DNA of 33,119 nt. Origin: Thermoleophilia bacterium. GTDB lineage: Bacteria > Actinomycetota > Thermoleophilia > Gaiellales > SKUG01. The notes beneath the pieces are model-generated. The model saw only the letters and a program-made list of their open reading frames with translations. It did not search any database and had not been told where the DNA came from. Location: the NCBI GenBank assembly GCA_025964435.1, contig JAOPYV010000099.1, positions 1-33,119 of the forward strand. The letters are read 5' to 3'. A program made the position numbers and the translations under genes. Below, one piece after another: positions 21,902 through 28,592 of this stretch (position 1 is its first letter; each line of letters begins with the position of its first letter).

Positions 21902-24900
21902 TCAGGGCAGGGCGACGGCAGTGAGTGTCAGGAGCCCGTCATAGTCGGCGGCCTTCTGTGTGGTGGACGGGTTCAGTCGGACGGTGAGGACGACCGTGTC
22001 GGTGACGAGGCTGTAGCTGGATCTCCGGTGGAGCTCGACCTCGGACGAGTTCTCGAGGCCCGTGTAGAGGTTGTTGATCATGTCGCCCTGCGCGGTGCCG
22101 GTGCCGGTGCCCCACTTGGCGAGGCGCCCGCCTGTCGCGTCGCGCACCGTGATGCCGACGAAGCCGGCAGCCCCAGCAGGCCACGACGCGGGGGCGACGG
22201 CGCCGTTCTGACGATCAGGGATCGTGGCAGTGTTGGTCACGAGCTCGGCCAGGCCCCAGGTGTCGCTCTCATCGTGGGCGGTGAGCTGGTAGCCACTCGC
22301 CGAGTCGGTGGTGACGTTGACGCTGCTGGAGCCAAAGGCGTCCGTGCCTGGGAGCACGGTGCCGAGCGGCATTGTGCTGCCGACCGAGACCGTGAGTGTG
22401 GTGTTCGCCGCCACCTCGAGCCAGTCCGGCACGCCCCAGAGCGTGAAGGCGCCGGTCGGCTGCATGCGCAGGCGCGCCCGCTGCCAGTAGCGTGCGCCGT
22501 CGCGCAGTATCTGGGCAGGGCCGGAGTAGGTGGAGTCGGCGCAGCGCGCGGCAGCCGCGCAGTTCGGGCCGAGGGCGGTGGTCCCCGAGTCCCAGATCGT
22601 CTCGAGGTGGGGTCGCTTGGCGCGGTAGTAGCCGAGCACGGCGGCGGCGACGTATTCGGTGGGCGCGAAGCGGATCTCGTCGATGTCGCCGTGGAAATGG
22701 TTGCCGCCGGCGGCCGAGCCACCCACTCCCAGGATGCTCGCGTTCTGGTCGGCCGCGCCACCCGCTGCTACCGGACCCGCCACGAGCTGCCCGTCGATGA
22801 AGAGACGCATCTCGTTCGTCGTGCTCATCGTGTAGGCGACGTGATGCCATTGACCGTCGACGGTCGCGTTGCCGGCAGCGGCGCTTGAGCAGGCCGTCTT
22901 GGCCACCGCTCCCACCATCGTCTGCGCGCAGAGCGGGCCGGCCGAACTGAATTGGATGGAGTATGTGCAGTCGCCCGAACAGCCCGTTCCCGGCCCCTTC
23001 TCCAGGATGACCGGATTGGCGGTGTTGCCGATGTCGCTGGTGCGATACCAGGCGTCCACGGTGAACCCGTTGGTAGCGGTGAGCGCGGCACTGTGGGGGA
23101 TGGTGGCGCGTTGGGTCGTGCCGTCGAGCGACAGGGCCTGCCCGAACTGGCTCGCGACGTAAGGGGGGGCGTTGACCGGCGTCATCGCGCCGGTGTAGGT
23201 GCCGCCGGGGTCGGCCGCGGTGGAGCCGTTGGCGTGCCAGACGCCTCCCGCATGTTCCGGCGGCGTCGACCATGTCTGGACGTTCAGTGCGTCTGCCGCG
23301 GCCGGTGCCGCGTTCACGAACGAGGTGTGGAACACCGACGAGCGGATCGGCGGTGCGTTGGTGAGGCTGGGGTTGGCTCGCCCCGCCTGCGCATTGACAT
23401 CGTCGCCCCACATCGTGGTCGGCCCCGGGCACGGTGGGGGAATCGTGAAGGTTCCTTCAGCGGGCAGGGCCGTCACGAGCGAGGCCCAGTCGGTGGTGCG
23501 CACGCGGTAGTAGTACGTGCCGGGCGCGGCCGTGATCGTCCTTGAATGCGTGGGGCCGGACGCAGTCGGATCGAGCGATGACATGGTGTATTCCGCGTAC
23601 GACGCGCGCGGGACGGTGTCGAACAGGATGTCCGACGAACCCGATTCGCTGGTTTCCCACTCGATCGTCGCGCCGACACAGCTGGTGGTGACGGTCGAGG
23701 CCACGGTGATCGTCGGCGCGATCGAGTCGTCCCAGCGCAGCACGCGCGCTCCGTAGTCGGAGCCGATCCAGACGGCGCCGTCGAGGGCGCTGATGCCCGT
23801 CGACTGCGCGTTCCTGTTCTGGGCCCAGGTGCCGTTGTTGGTGCAGCTCGGCGTGCCGATCTGCTGCGCGCCGGTCGTTACGAAGCCCGACGTCGGGATG
23901 GGGTCGAGCACCATGGCGCCGCAGTCGTTCGTCCAGAAGATCGCGTTGTCGGTCATCGAGACCCCCATCGTGCCGTGTGCGATGCCGCCGGAGCCGTTGA
24001 GGTTGGCTGCGGTCTGCCCGATGATGGCGTCGGCGGGCTGGTTGTTCGTCGTCGGGATCGTGTTCCAGATCAGGATGCGGTGGTTGTCGGCGACGGCGAG
24101 CTTGCCGTTCCAGATCGAGACCCCGACGGCGTAGCTGATCGAGGATGCGCTGGTTCCCCCGTTGTCGGAGGTCCCGCTCGTGAAGTTCGGCTGGCCGAGC
24201 ACGACGTCGGCCGGGGGTGACGCACCGCTTGCAGGGATGCTGTTCCAGATCATCACCCTGTTGTTGTTCTGGTCCGTCACGACGACCTTGGTCCCGTCGG
24301 AGGCGACGCCCTTTGGATCCGTCAGCAGCGACTGCGTACGCCCGTTGTTGACCCCGGTCAGCGACGACTGCCCGAGCGCGAAGTCGGCGGGCTGGTTCTC
24401 CACGGTCGGGAGGGTGTTCCAGACCAGCACCCGGTTGTTCGACGAGTCGGTCACCATGAGCTTGGTCCCATCACTCCACGACCCCTGGGGCTGGTCGGCG
24501 GTGGCAGCTCCGCGGATGCCATTCACGCCGTCGCTGAAGGAGTAGAAGTCGCTGGACTGGTGGAAGCGCCACGTCGGAGGCGTGTTGGTCGCGGCGGGGC
24601 GTGTCGCCCACCAACGGCCGGTGTGCATCTCCGCCGCCTCGACGAACAACCCCCCGCCAGGGATGGCCAGTGGCCAGATCCCGACCTCGGACAGCGTCGT
24701 GCGGTCGTGCGTGAAGGTGAGGTCCTTGTCATACCCGGAGTTTCCGGCCTTGTTCATCGCATCCTGGCCGAGCACGAAGCCCGCCGCGGTGTTCGTGATC
24801 CCGCTCGGCCACGCCGCCCACGAGAGGACCCGCTGGTTGCCAGTGTCCGTGACGAGCACGCGGGTGCCGTTCGACCAGACGTCAGCCGGCGTGAAGAGCG

Positions 24901-26002
24901 TGTCGGCGCCGACGGCCGCCTGGCTGCGATTGCCTCCGCATGCGGTCCACGAGGACTGTCCGAGAACGTGGTTGGCGTTGGTGCCCACCGCGCTTGCCGG
25001 CCAGGCATCCCAGAACAGCACGCGGTGGTTGGTCTTGTCGGCGATGACCGTCTTCGTTCCGTCGGTCCATATCCCGCGCGGATCGTTCATCTTCGCCTGG
25101 GTGCAGCCGGAGGTAGTGGTCGTGAGGTCTGGCTGGCCGAAGACCCGGTCGAATGCCTGGCCCGTGGCGGTGGGCCAGGTGTTGTATCCGACGACCCGGT
25201 TGTTGTCGGTATCGGCGATCACCAGCTTGGTGCCAGCTGCGTCCCCGTACACACCGGTGGGTGTATTGAGCCCGGTCGTGCCGGCGCCCGAGGCCGTCGA
25301 GGTCGCCGTCGGCTGGCCGAGCACGAGATCCGCCGGTTGCTGGTTGGAAGTGGGCCAGGTGTTCCAGACCAGCACGCGGTTGCTGCCCGCATCGGCGACG
25401 ACCACCTTCGTGCCGTTCGTCCACACCCCGGCAGGCTGGAACATCGTGGTTGCATCGTCGGTGCCTGCCGCCGGCCAGGCGCACGACGTCATGTTCGGCT
25501 GCCCCAAGACGATGTCCGGGGGGGTGTCCGGCGCCGTCGGTGCCGTGTTCCAGAGCAGCACCCGCGTGTTGCCGTTGTCGGCAACGGCCATGCGCCCGCC
25601 CGCCACGATCACGTCGGAGGGGCGGCTTGCGCCGTTCGAGGCGCACCGTAACGTCGGGTTGAACAGCTGCTCGGCACCGCTGGGCTTCAGGTGCACCGCG
25701 TCGAACACCGGGCCGTTCGCGGTGGGGAAGGCGTTCCACTGGGCGACGCGGCTGCCGAGTTCGTCGGTGGCATAGACGCGCGTGCCGTCGGACGTGACGC
25801 TCGTGGGGCGCCCGAATGCCCTGTCGCCACGGGTGCCTGCGCGAATCCGGGTCCAGTCGGGACCCCCCAAGTGGAGGGTCGCGTTCTGGCCGGCGGTGAA
25901 GTTCGCCCCCTGCGCCACGCCGACGAACCCGGCGATGAGCCAGGCTACCGCCGCGATGGTTGATATGCAGATTGAGGATGTAACGCTCACACCGGTGACC
26001 AT
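21902..26002 (-). CDS. Large exported NHL-repeat / LamG surface protein
   Basis: 1366 residues from ATG 26002. A signal peptide (ICISTIAAVAWLIAGFVGVAQG-A) is preceded by hydrophilic residues. Residues about 40-700 hold at least eight copies of an NHL-like beta-propeller strand pattern ending VLVWNT-P-----PADxVLGQ, most with G-KLVVADT-NNRV. An FN3-like region follows (about 757-850; TIEWETSESGSSDILF ... GTYYYRVRTTDWAS), then a LamG/concanavalin-like domain (about 907-1200; NGFTVDAWYRTSD, HHVAYTMS, GDIDEIRFAP). The last about 150 residues are a beta-rich domain ending SSTTQKAADYDGLLTLTAVALP, which resembles the end of the protein at 31945. No LPXTG or obvious anchor is visible. Probably a cell-surface or secreted binding protein. 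An earlier in-frame start (up to 26125) is possible but weaker. Confidence 0.87.
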   Translation of the reverse strand: MVTGVSVTSSICISTIAAVAWLIAGFVGVAQGANFTAGQNATLHLGGPDWTRIRAGTRGDRAFGRPTSVTSDGTRVYATDELGSRVAQWNAFPTANGPVFDAVHLKPSGAEQLFNPTLRCASNGASRPSDVIVAGGRMAVADNGNTRVLLWNTAPTAPDTPPDIVLGQPNMTSCAWPAAGTDDATTMFQPAGVWTNGTKVVVADAGSNRVLVWNTWPTSNQQPADLVLGQPTATSTASGAGTTGLNTPTGVYGDAAGTKLVIADTDNNRVVGYNTWPTATGQAFDRVFGQPDLTTTTSGCTQAKMNDPRGIWTDGTKTVIADKTNHRVLFWDAWPASAVGTNANHVLGQSSWTACGGNRSQAAVGADTLFTPADVWSNGTRVLVTDTGNQRVLSWAAWPSGITNTAAGFVLGQDAMNKAGNSGYDKDLTFTHDRTTLSEVGIWPLAIPGGGLFVEAAEMHTGRWWATRPAATNTPPTWRFHQSSDFYSFSDGVNGIRGAATADQPQGSWSDGTKLMVTDSSNNRVLVWNTLPTVENQPADFALGQSSLTGVNNGRTQSLLTDPKGVASDGTKVVVTDQNNNRVMIWNSIPASGASPPADVVLGQPNFTSGTSDNGGTSASSISYAVGVSIWNGKLAVADNHRILIWNTIPTTNNQPADAIIGQTAANLNGSGGIAHGTMGVSMTDNAIFWTNDCGAMVLDPIPTSGFVTTGAQQIGTPSCTNNGTWAQNRNAQSTGISALDGAVWIGSDYGARVLRWDDSIAPTITVASTVTTSCVGATIEWETSESGSSDILFDTVPRASYAEYTMSSLDPTASGPTHSRTITAAPGTYYYRVRTTDWASLVTALPAEGTFTIPPPCPGPTTMWGDDVNAQAGRANPSLTNAPPIRSSVFHTSFVNAAPAAADALNVQTWSTPPEHAGGVWHANGSTAADPGGTYTGAMTPVNAPPYVASQFGQALSLDGTTQRATIPHSAALTATNGFTVDAWYRTSDIGNTANPVILEKGPGTGCSGDCTYSIQFSSAGPLCAQTMVGAVAKTACSSAAAGNATVDGQWHHVAYTMSTTNEMRLFIDGQLVAGPVAAGGAADQNASILGVGGSAAGGNHFHGDIDEIRFAPTEYVAAAVLGYYRAKRPHLETIWDSGTTALGPNCAAAARCADSTYSGPAQILRDGARYWQRARLRMQPTGAFTLWGVPDWLEVAANTTLTVSVGSTMPLGTVLPGTDAFGSSSVNVTTDSASGYQLTAHDESDTWGLAELVTNTATIPDRQNGAVAPASWPAGAAGFVGITVRDATGGRLAKWGTGTGTAQGDMINNLYTGLENSSEVELHRRSSYSLVTDTVVLTVRLNPSTTQKAADYDGLLTLTAVALP

Positions 26003-26192
26003 CGGCTTCTTTTTCCGACGCCTAAAGGACGAAAAAAGGAGCAAATCCCCTGCCCGGGGCCAGTCCGCGGATGTCCATGAGGTCGCTTCGATCGGCCATT
26101 CCGAATGCAGCAGCCCGGGGGCCATGATCAGGTTGTTGGCGGCTGGCGAGGGCAGCGATCAACGATCCACATCAAGCAGATCCAAGGAGCGG

Positions 26193-26387
26193 GTGAAGCG
26201 TTTCAACGACCGCGGGCGCTGGGCACCGGTGGGGCAAGCGGTATTGGCAAGGCAACGGTTCGTCAACTCGCGGATGAAGGCGCCGCCATGGCGATCCAGG
26301 CCACGCCGGCGAGCAGCTCGCAGGGGAGCTGCGGGAAGCCGGACAACGTGTTGTCTTCATCGAGCACGACGTGACGAGCAGTGAGTG
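26193..26387 (+). pseudogene. Short-chain dehydrogenase/reductase remnant
   Basis: AAGGAG stands 3 nt before a GTG (26193), from which the first codons read VKRFNDR, the usual SDR opening before the first strand. One base is then missing (expected GTGGCGCTG, observed GGGCGCTGG). A frame beginning near 26217 continues ALGTGGASGIGKATVRQL, the Rossmann glycine motif, to ADEGAAMAIQ. After a second indel a third frame reads GEQLAGELREAGQRVVFIEH, then DVTSSE and a stop. The catalytic Ser-Tyr-Lys part is absent. It is a truncated, frameshifted SDR directly beside the displaced ssrA end, probably damaged around the time of island integration. Confidence 0.82.
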
Positions 26388-26407
26388 ATGGGAAAAAAAC
26401 CACAAAA

Positions 26408-26434
26408 GAAAACCCCCGCAAAGCGAGGGTTTTC
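26408..26434 (-). terminator. Terminator at displaced ssrA 3' end (left copy)
   Basis: GAAAACCC at 26408 pairs with GGGTTTTC ending at 26434, with an inner CGC/GCG after a C-A mismatch. On the minus strand a run of T follows (complement of AAAAAAA near 26393). It matches the layout and position of the terminator after the intact ssrA copy, 2130 bp away. Confidence 0.78.
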
Positions 26435-26462
26435 AGTGGAGGCGGCGGGAATCGAACCCGCG
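26431..26462 (-). repeat. Left attachment-site copy, displaced ssrA 3' end
   Basis: This 32-bp sequence is identical to 28561-28592 and contains the T-arm and acceptor 3' strand of tmRNA (CGCGGGTTCGATTCC on the minus strand). Beyond 26462 the similarity stops, and no matching acceptor 5' strand is present nearby, so it is not a separate tRNA or tmRNA. The similarity continues leftward, less strictly, through the terminator and the GGGAAAAAAACCACAAAA run. Confidence 0.85.
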
Positions 26463-26503: not shown

Positions 26504-26549
26504 CGTGTACACGCTTGTGTAACCATACGGGTACACCATGCGATATACT
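26504..26549 (+). promoter_or_regulatory. Promoter and operator of the antitoxin-toxin operon
   Basis: A palindrome CGTGTACACG (26504-26513) is followed by GTGTAACC-N4-GGGTACAC (26517-26536), an inverted repeat with one mismatch per arm. A -10 box TATACT lies at 26544-26549, and the antitoxin ATG begins 6 bp later, as in leaderless transcripts. No -35 at 17 bp is evident. The palindromes sit where a Phd/YefM repressor would bind, so autoregulation is likely. Confidence 0.65.
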
Positions 26550-26555
26550 GGGGAT

Positions 26556-26879
26556 ATGGCCGTCCCGCGCATCCTCTCCGTTCGCGAAGCCCGCACCGGG
26601 CTCGCCCAGGTGATGAAGGACGTGCGCGAGCCAGGTGCCGAGCCCATCTACGTCGGCGCACATCGAAAGCCGGAGGTCGTCATCGTGTCAGCAGAACGCT
26701 ACGCAGAGCTCACCGGTCAGCGCGCCATCGACAACTCCGTCGCCTCCGCGCGACTCGAGGGACTCGAAGCAACAGACCGCGACCTCGACCTCATGAAGCG
26801 GGTCGCCTCCGGCGAGCTGACCACTGAGCAGGCGATCCAGATCGCGCTCGGCACGACCGCCGATCGAGCGAGTGCATGA
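26556..26879 (+). CDS. Antitoxin: Phd/YefM-like domain fused to VbhA-like Fic inhibitor
   Basis: 107 residues. Residues 1-55 (ILSVREARTGLAQVMKDV ... PEVVIVSAERYAEL) have the Phd/YefM DNA-binding dimer fold pattern. Residues 60-100 read NSVASARLEGLEATDRDLDL then MKRVASGELTTEQAIQIALG. This is close, as I remember it, to VbhA, the antitoxin of the Bartonella Fic protein VbhT, and contains the inhibitory motif [S/T]xxxE[G/N] as S64-ARL-E68-G69. The motif glutamate is known to obstruct ATP in the Fic active site. So the protein should both repress its operon and neutralise the toxin. Its stop overlaps the toxin start by 8 bp. The start is ATG 26556, next to the -10 box; an upstream in-frame ATG at 26538 is within the -10/operator region. 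Confidence 0.85.
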   Translation: MAVPRILSVREARTGLAQVMKDVREPGAEPIYVGAHRKPEVVIVSAERYAELTGQRAIDNSVASARLEGLEATDRDLDLMKRVASGELTTEQAIQIALGTTADRASA

Positions 26880-27438
26880 CCCCTACGTAGACCCGGCATC
26901 AGATTGCCTGCGCAACAGACTCGGCATCACTGACCGCGTCGAACTGCAGAACGCCGAGCGCAGCGCCTCGCTCCTTCGCGAGCAGTCGATCCGCATGCAC
27001 GGACTGCCGGGAGGCTACGACCTCCCTCACCTCCAGGCCTTCCACCGCACCATCTTCCAGGACGTCTATCCGTGGGCCGGCGAGATCCGCACCTGCGAGC
27101 TCGCGCGCACGCATCCGTTCTGCCGACCCGAGTACATCGAGGAGCAGGCGAACCAGCTCCTCTCGAGCCTCGCCGACGAGTCACACCTGCGCGGACTCGA
27201 GCGCACCGACTTCGTCGATCGCCTGACGCACTACTTCTCCGAGATCAACGCCATCCACCCGTTCCGCGAAGGCAACGGACGCACGCAACGAATCTTCTTC
27301 GAGCAGCTCGCGCGGGATGTCGGCTACGTCCTCGACTGGTCCCGAACGACCGAGCACGAGAACGTCGAGGCGTGCGTCGCAGCGATCGAAGGGGACGTCC
27401 AGCGGCTGAGGTCACTCCTCGATGCCGTCATTGACTGA
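26872..27438 (+). CDS. Fic-domain toxin (AMPylating type)
   Basis: 188 residues. The complete Fic core motif HPFREGNGRTQR begins at residue 129 (HxFx(D/E)GNGRxxR), with the catalytic His and the Mg-binding acidic residue intact. Upstream are the conserved helix GGYDLPHLQAFHRTIFQDVYPWAGEIRT and the flap HPFCRPEYIEEQANQLL. The short length and VbhT-like order fit the class I Fic toxins, whose inhibitor is a separate small protein; such enzymes transfer AMP to targets such as gyrase and topoisomerase IV. The start is GTG 26872, overlapping the antitoxin end, so translation is coupled. The target here is unknown. Confidence 0.9.
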   Translation: MHDPYVDPASDCLRNRLGITDRVELQNAERSASLLREQSIRMHGLPGGYDLPHLQAFHRTIFQDVYPWAGEIRTCELARTHPFCRPEYIEEQANQLLSSLADESHLRGLERTDFVDRLTHYFSEINAIHPFREGNGRTQRIFFEQLARDVGYVLDWSRTTEHENVEACVAAIEGDVQRLRSLLDAVID

Positions 27439-27675: not shown

Positions 27676-28380
27676 ATGTCAGAGCAGAAGACTATCGGTG
27701 TCATCGGCGGAACGTCCTGGCATTCGTCTGCGACGTATTACCGGCATTTGAACGAAATTGCGCACGAACGACTCGGCCGTAAGCACTCCGCGCGCGTGTT
27801 GCTGGACAGCATCGATTTCGACGAGATTGATCGCCTACAGGTTCAGGCCCGGTGGAACGACGTCGGGGCGATACTTGCTTGGCACGCATCGAGACTGGAA
27901 GACGCTGGAGCCGATCTGGTGCTGGTCGCGGCAAATGCAATGCACACCGCGGCCGATGCGATCGAATCAGCCATCACCGTGCCCTTTATCCATATTGCAG
28001 ATGCGATCGCGCACGAGTGTCGAGTGATGGAGTACGAGAAGGTAGGACTAATCGGCACTCGGTATACGATGTCAATGTCCTTCCTCGTCGATGCTCTGCG
28101 AGACCGCGGAATCACCGCCATCCAGGCGCCCCAGACTGAACACGCAGAAATCGATCGAGTGATCTATGACGAGCTCACTCACGGCATATTCCGTGACACC
28201 GCCGAACACCTGTTGACGTCGGTGACGGAGGATCTCGTCACAAAGGGATCTGAAGCCGTCGTGCTCGCATGCTCAGAACTCGCCGCCCTCGCGGCGCGCA
28301 TGGATGTCACCTCAGCTGCGTACATCGACACTGCGTACGCCCACTGCCGCATGGCCATCGATCGGTCTTTGTCGGACTAA
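27676..28380 (+). CDS. Aspartate/glutamate racemase family protein
   Basis: 234 residues. The start MSEQKTIGVIGGTSWHSSATYYRHLNE is the YgeA-type opening of the Asp/Glu racemase superfamily, and the C-terminal catalytic segment SEAVVLACSELAAL keeps its cysteine. The N-terminal catalytic position, normally Cys or Thr before an Asn (as in CNTxH or TNTMH), reads LVLVAANAMHTAA here, so the acid/base residue is Ala. Racemisation needs both residues, so the enzyme may be inactive as a racemase or do different chemistry. Codon use and lower GC than the neighbours point to recent acquisition. A weak AGGA precedes the ATG. Confidence 0.8.
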   Translation: MSEQKTIGVIGGTSWHSSATYYRHLNEIAHERLGRKHSARVLLDSIDFDEIDRLQVQARWNDVGAILAWHASRLEDAGADLVLVAANAMHTAADAIESAITVPFIHIADAIAHECRVMEYEKVGLIGTRYTMSMSFLVDALRDRGITAIQAPQTEHAEIDRVIYDELTHGIFRDTAEHLLTSVTEDLVTKGSEAVVLACSELAALAARMDVTSAAYIDTAYAHCRMAIDRSLSD

Positions 28381-28537
28381 TAGTCGCCGCAGGGGGACAC
28401 GGTCGCTACGATCTGAAGCACCAACAGACGGCTCTGCTTACAGGCCGTGTCGAGGCGGAAATCGCCTGCTCGCGCAAATTGTGGCGGTATGCAGGTGCTT
28501 TCCGAAGGCCACTTTGACGGGAAAAAAACCACAAAAA

Positions 28538-28564
28538 GAAACCCCCTGCAAAACAGGGGGTTTC
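28538..28564 (-). terminator. Terminator of ssrA (intact copy)
   Basis: Perfect 11-bp stem GAAACCCCCTG / CAGGGGGTTTC with a five-base loop, followed on the minus strand by T-rich sequence (complement of AAAAACACC-type runs at 28521-28537). It lies 2 bp beyond the tmRNA 3' end. Confidence 0.85.
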
Positions 28565-28592
28565 AGTGGAGGCGGCGGGAATCGAACCCGCG
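28561..28592 (-). repeat. Right attachment-site copy, ssrA 3' end in place
   Basis: Identical for 32 bp to 26431-26462. It covers the 3' strand of the tmRNA acceptor and T-arm, plus the first bases beyond, so ssrA is complete here. Confidence 0.85.

Follow-up and report, generated by a model that had tools for sequence, protein, structure and literature searches.

A Phd/YefM-VbhA chimeric antitoxin paired with a predicted class I Fic AMPylase in a member of the Thermoleophilia

Background

Published accounts present class I Fic antitoxins as small helical inhibitors, and none that we found mentions a transcriptional arm. The glutamate of the inhibitory motif of EcFicA and other FicA proteins engages the second arginine of the Fic motif (PMC5033356; PMC8401265), and antitoxins that consist of the VbhA part only neutralise toxins of this class although they have no DNA-binding domain (PMC8401265). 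In the published operators of YefM and Axe antitoxins, palindromes carry TGTACA cores spaced at 12 bp, and this distance is reportedly conserved across many bacteria (PMC7730913). Here we describe a locus in a 33,119-nucleotide stretch of DNA from a Thermoleophilia bacterium (hereinafter, the window) that is very likely a type II toxin-antitoxin (TA) operon, in which a class I Fic AMPylase would be accompanied by a modular antitoxin combining operator repression of the Phd/YefM type with toxin block of the VbhA type.

Results and discussion

A two-domain antitoxin encoded by a gene overlapping that of a Fic toxin

The first-pass annotation of the window placed a Fic toxin and its antitoxin at positions 26556-27438, and two intact overlapping ORFs are indeed present there on the forward strand. 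The first of these (26556-26879) encodes an antitoxin of 107 aa, with an ATG at 26556 and a TGA stop codon at 26877-26879. An alternative in-frame ATG at 26538 would add six residues, yielding a 113-residue form; 26556 is the likelier start because, in the alignment, the first residue of the homologous antitoxins corresponds to this position. The same annotation had read the antitoxin as a fusion of a Phd/YefM-like N-terminal half with a VbhA-like C-terminal half, and profile searches bear this out. A Pfam search identified PhdYeFM_antitox (PF02604; 35.9 bits, gathering cut-off 29.8) at residues 11-74 and VbhA (PF18495; 38.1 bits, gathering cut-off 25.9) at residues 62-102, both counted from 26538. 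The antitoxin also scores above the cut-off of the NCBIfam model TIGR01552 (phd_fam, 22.2 bits), and a genome-side search recovered the VbhA domain at identical coordinates. In a phmmer comparison, the VbhA chains of the VbhT complex (3ZC7/3SHG) align to the VbhA part of the antitoxin with E-values of 0.004-0.005.

On the forward strand, the predicted Phd/YefM DNA-binding and dimerisation domain, which is also apparent in an AF2 model, maps to 26568-26717, and the predicted VbhA-type neutralising domain, comprising alpha-inh and two helices, maps to 26721-26843. Within the latter, the inhibitory motif SARLEG (26745-26762, forward strand) matches (S/T)xxxE(G/N) and occupies, as had been claimed, residues 64-69 counted from 26556, with S64, E68 (codon GAG, 26757-26759) and G69 at the defining positions. 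In the single-sequence AF2 model of the antitoxin (mean pLDDT 72), numbered as in the 113-residue form, helices and strands succeed each other much as in Phd proteins at residues 12-59 (pLDDT about 75-86), and further helices are present at residues 80-91 and 96-103; the alpha-inh region is modelled as a low-confidence strand, not as a helix. A Foldseek search initiated with this model returned the Phd/YefM chains 2odk, 2a6q and 8yzg among the first matches, at 1.9-2.8 Å over about 50 residues but with E-values of about 1.

The toxin is a class I Fic protein and not Doc

The second ORF (26872-27438, forward strand) encodes a predicted class I Fic AMPylase of 188 aa; it starts with GTG at 26872, overlapping the end of the antitoxin gene, and its own stop codon ends at 27438. 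The protein matches PF02661 in Pfam (65 bits) and, in NCBIfam, the PRK10347 Fic (179.7 bits) and VbhT (161.9 bits) models; its closest solved relatives in the PDB are E. coli FicT, VbhT and Fic-1 (E-values of 1e-38 to 1e-42), with the alignment extending over the full toxin. Similarity to the PADLOC candidate defence family PDC-S04 was detected as well (E-value 9e-73). The active-site motif HPFREGNGRTQR (27256-27291, forward strand) fits HxFx(D/E)GNGRxxR, and H129, E133, N135, R137 and R140 are all invariant in an alignment of eight sequences (A2). The VbhA/alpha-inh domain is encoded by a separate, overlapping ORF upstream of the toxin, which is the class I arrangement. By analogy with other FicT proteins, type IIA topoisomerases (gyrase and topo IV) are the probable target.

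Given the Phd domain of the antitoxin, the pair could alternatively be viewed as a Phd/Doc-type system, with a Doc-like kinase as the toxin and an antitoxin that acts by Phd fold complementation. The TASmania database lists a PhdYeFM.Fic pair in Proteobacteria, in apparent agreement with this view; these pairs are probably Phd-Doc because the combined Fic/DOC family of Pfam includes Doc. However, the motif HPFREGNGRTQR is of the AMPylating type that the first-pass annotation had recognised and not that of Doc, and the DOC_P1 model reaches only 20.2 bits, well short of its cut-off of 38.65, compared with the 162-180 bits of the VbhT and Fic equivalog models, so that we rejected a Doc-type toxin. 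The coverage of the full toxin by the FicT/VbhT alignment and the VbhA motif in the antitoxin tail also speak against a Phd/Doc system, which we regard as exceedingly improbable.

Genomic context of the Fic gene pair

The gene pair lies between two copies of a tmRNA 3' end with terminator (26390-26462 and 28520-28592), which are 85% identical over 73 nt, with a stretch of full identity at the tmRNA end. The 2.1-kb segment between them holds, in addition to the TA pair, an Asp/Glu racemase family gene identified with Pfam (27676-28380, forward strand), the G+C content of which is 58%, compared with 67% for the window; no integrase was found between the two repeats. Judging from the sequence, this segment is probably what is left of an element that had inserted at ssrA. 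In three genomes of the same genus (L070-L072, 64-81% complete), the tmRNA has a different downstream flank where the contig permits reading, and the antitoxin has no match in these genomes. Other features of the surroundings include a fragment on the forward strand at 26200-26380 that resembles the start of a short-chain dehydrogenase (TGGASGIGKATVRQLADEG) and is apparently a gene remnant, and a putative ORF of 1407 aa on the reverse strand (21902-26125) whose repeats look like propeller units of the NHL type. Other contigs of this genome (G000), namely C74, C114 and C189, contain four more Fic-domain ORFs with open frames of 398-506 aa.

Such a setting suggests that the pair itself might be debris, that is, a decayed or silenced module left in the ssrA-site segment: the duplicated tmRNA 3' end flanks it without an integrase in between, the dehydrogenase-like fragment adjoins it, and the Fic genes of some relatives are broken. 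Nevertheless, both ORFs in the window are intact, all catalytic and inhibitory motif residues are present and the operator is intact, and we consider decay very unlikely.

The Phd-VbhA combination recurs in actinobacteria

We identified 13 further Phd-VbhA antitoxins in actinobacteria, for a total of 14 distinct chimeras with that of the window. Three of these are encoded, together with Fic, on plasmids of three Pseudonocardia strains (L035-L037), where they are annotated as 'Phd/YefM (or prevent-host-death) family antitoxin' and 'Fic family protein'; one is L008, and the remaining nine (L165-L169 and L172-L175) were found in other actinobacterial genomes by a search with an alignment of five chimeras (A1). 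In addition, a fifteenth case (L176) has its Phd part divided between two frames, and L164 matches the L036 plasmid without a difference over 3333 bases. This match identifies the genome of L164 (G727) as a Pseudonocardia and, that genome being of the same phylum, puts the genome of the window in Actinomycetota. The S-x-x-x-E-G motif is present in all 14 chimeras. When five relatives were run against Pfam, the Phd score was 27.1-28.7 bits in four of them, just below the cut-off of 29.8. The dual-role reading of the antitoxin is strengthened by this recurrence in at least 13 more loci with an invariant S-x-x-x-E-G.

A Fic ORF with the HPFREGN motif is located downstream of the chimera gene in the window, in the three Pseudonocardia plasmids and in L166, L168, L169, L172 and L175, the frame of the last reading HPFREGNGRALG; in L165 the contig ends within the Fic gene. 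After the other chimera genes, Fic is split in frame (L008), cut short (L167), partial (L173) or not seen (L174). The chimera gene is intact in these four loci, which might accordingly encode orphan antitoxins; the occurrence of an intact chimera beside a broken or absent Fic gene implies that Phd-VbhA can persist without an intact partner.

A search of 101 relatives with the antitoxin of the window produced two weak matches only, neither of which was retained: L003 is a Phd gene that precedes a RelE-like ORF, and L004 was judged to be due to chance. No chimera was found in the viral contigs searched or in phage records, and an antitoxin of the Phd type was detected at none of the 59 viral loci that have Fic relatives.

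A predicted YefM-type operator accompanies the Phd domain

The palindromes that the first-pass annotation had noted upstream of the pair are present and more specific than it had claimed. A predicted YefM-type operator (26504-26536) consists of three TGTACA-type cores, namely TGTACA (26506-26511), TGTAAC (26518-26523) and GGTACA (26530-26535), the successive centres of which are regularly spaced at 12 bp. The score of this triple, 15 of 18, is the highest attained among 20,000 random 80-mers of the window and is reached by 35 of them, about as many as should overlap the operator. The triple is a stronger signal in the window than a single pair of cores, for which a spacing of 10 bp ties with 12 bp and P is about 0.03. 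A consensus scan of the TA region identified no sigma-70 promoter.

We then scored pairs of cores at each spacing from 8 to 16 within the 80 bases preceding the start codon. Spacing 12 ranks first, alone or tied, upstream of 15 of the 16 chimera genes scanned (including one duplicate, as L164 repeats the L036 plasmid), the exception being L166, which has no 12-bp pair in the 80 bases scanned. Conversely, among 17 operons whose VbhA antitoxin is without Phd (nine plus eight, with HTH_17 present in three of the eight), the 12-bp score is unremarkable in 16; the exception, a locus on an Embleya plasmid (L100), has a marginal 12-bp pair (P 0.04). Phd-only antitoxin genes (L003, L005 and L038) have the 12-bp spacing too. 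The P-values for single operons are modest, and the weight rests on the contrast between the chimera and Phd-less sets.

This contrast bears on the possibility that the pair is an ordinary class I FicTA system in which the VbhA part does everything and Phd is a passive appendage for dimerisation or degradation that no longer regulates. The sufficiency of VbhA-only antitoxins for neutralisation is compatible with such a scenario, as is the lack of a Phd domain in the Embleya locus, which is nested among the Pseudonocardia Fic partners. However, the 12-bp operator is kept across the chimera operons and is absent or nearly absent where Phd is missing; because a non-binding Phd domain would not maintain a YefM-type operator, a passive role of Phd is disfavoured and appears rather unlikely. 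The presence of the operator in nearly all chimera operons and its lack in the Phd-less ones instead strengthen the interpretation of the antitoxin as a protein with two roles.

Proposed mechanism

Under this dual-role interpretation, a single protein probably represses the operon through its YefM-type domain and blocks the ATP site of Fic with its VbhA-type helix. The features observed directly are the two domains, catalytic and inhibitory motifs that are intact, the overlap of the genes and the recurring architecture and operator; DNA binding, repression, AMPylation and neutralisation, as well as the target and any conditional cooperativity, we infer. The Phd/YefM N-terminal domain would dimerise and bind the TGTACA-type operator, whose cores are spaced at 12 bp, immediately before the antitoxin start, and the operator-bound antitoxin would repress the operon. 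The VbhA-like C-terminal domain would take the place of the usual toxin-binding tail of Phd/YefM proteins and set E68 of alpha-inh against R140 of the toxin, its predicted partner, such that productive ATP binding is blocked and the toxin is kept off. Translation of the overlapping antitoxin and toxin genes is probably coupled.

Apparently exchangeable modules in Fic antitoxins

In four actinobacterial genomes (L177, L178, L179 and L181), the VbhA domain is located behind a different DNA-binding domain, the excisionase-type HTH_17; in the two cases that were run on Pfam (L179 and L181), both domains score above the cut-off, and an ORF with the Fic motif lies beside the VbhA-HTH_17 gene in three of the four genomes. 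The neutraliser is thus joined to two unrelated DNA-binding domains, Phd/YefM and HTH_17, and its occurrence behind HTH_17 in four genomes indicates that it seems to be exchangeable. Given that the Phd-VbhA combination and its DNA site recur in other actinobacteria, these antidotes appear to be built from mixed modules.

In the phylogenetic tree of the Fic domains, many branches of which are weak and long, the four sampled intact partners of chimeras are not recovered as a single clade, and a single origin has an AU p of 0.023; a clade to which the Phd-less Embleya protein is added forms weakly and is not rejected. The Embleya plasmid locus (L100, 1166-1483) encodes a VbhA antitoxin without Phd, and its Fic protein groups with the partners of the Pseudonocardia chimeras; this antitoxin may have lost a Phd domain. 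It is likely from the tree that the Phd part was gained or lost more than once. More generally, we somewhat favour a scenario in which class I Fic antitoxins of actinobacteria are built from swappable parts, with VbhA combined with at least two unrelated DNA-binding domains (Phd/YefM, or HTH_17 as in the four genomes above) to give autoregulated FicTA operons, and with multiple origins or losses of a Phd fusion that carried its operator along.

Comparison with described systems

We found no description of a Phd-VbhA or Phd-Fic chimera in the open-licence full texts that we searched. The component domains are known, and public annotation already lists the gene pair, without comment, as a Phd/YefM antitoxin followed by Fic. 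The locus shares with VbhA/VbhT and other class I FicTA systems (3SHG, 3ZC7; EcFicA/EcFicT, 5JFF; AntF/Fic-1, 8WT0) the common Fic AMPylase motif, the overlapping genes with the antitoxin first and the C-terminal VbhA domain with (S/T)xxxE(G/N), whereas most of the sampled antitoxins of that class are about 60-75 aa long and have no DNA-binding domain, where that of the window carries Phd/YefM in front. With YefM-YoeB and Axe-Txe, it shares the Phd/YefM N-terminal domain and the TGTACA cores 12 bp apart (PMC7730913), but the toxin of those systems is a RelE-fold ribonuclease, as opposed to the VbhA tail and Fic AMPylase of the pair described here. Phd/Doc of phage P1 similarly combines a Phd-family repressor with a Fido-fold toxin; however, P1 Doc is a kinase with another motif that is inhibited by a disordered Phd tail, unlike the AMPylating-type Fic with alpha-inh in the window. 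Modular antitoxins such as Panacea with Phd-C (PMC10440598) and the mazE-doc pair TasAB (PMC1626090) follow the same principle, that of one DNA-binding or scaffold domain with an exchangeable neutraliser; in the parts of these reports available to us, the domains involved are others and no class I Fic/VbhA combination is seen. The joining of a YefM-type repressor, a VbhA-type inhibitor and a matching operator is thus a clear example from nature of two unrelated TA families having recombined their antitoxin domains, and such a chimera allows one to test directly whether recognising the operator and neutralising the toxin are functions of separable plug-in modules.
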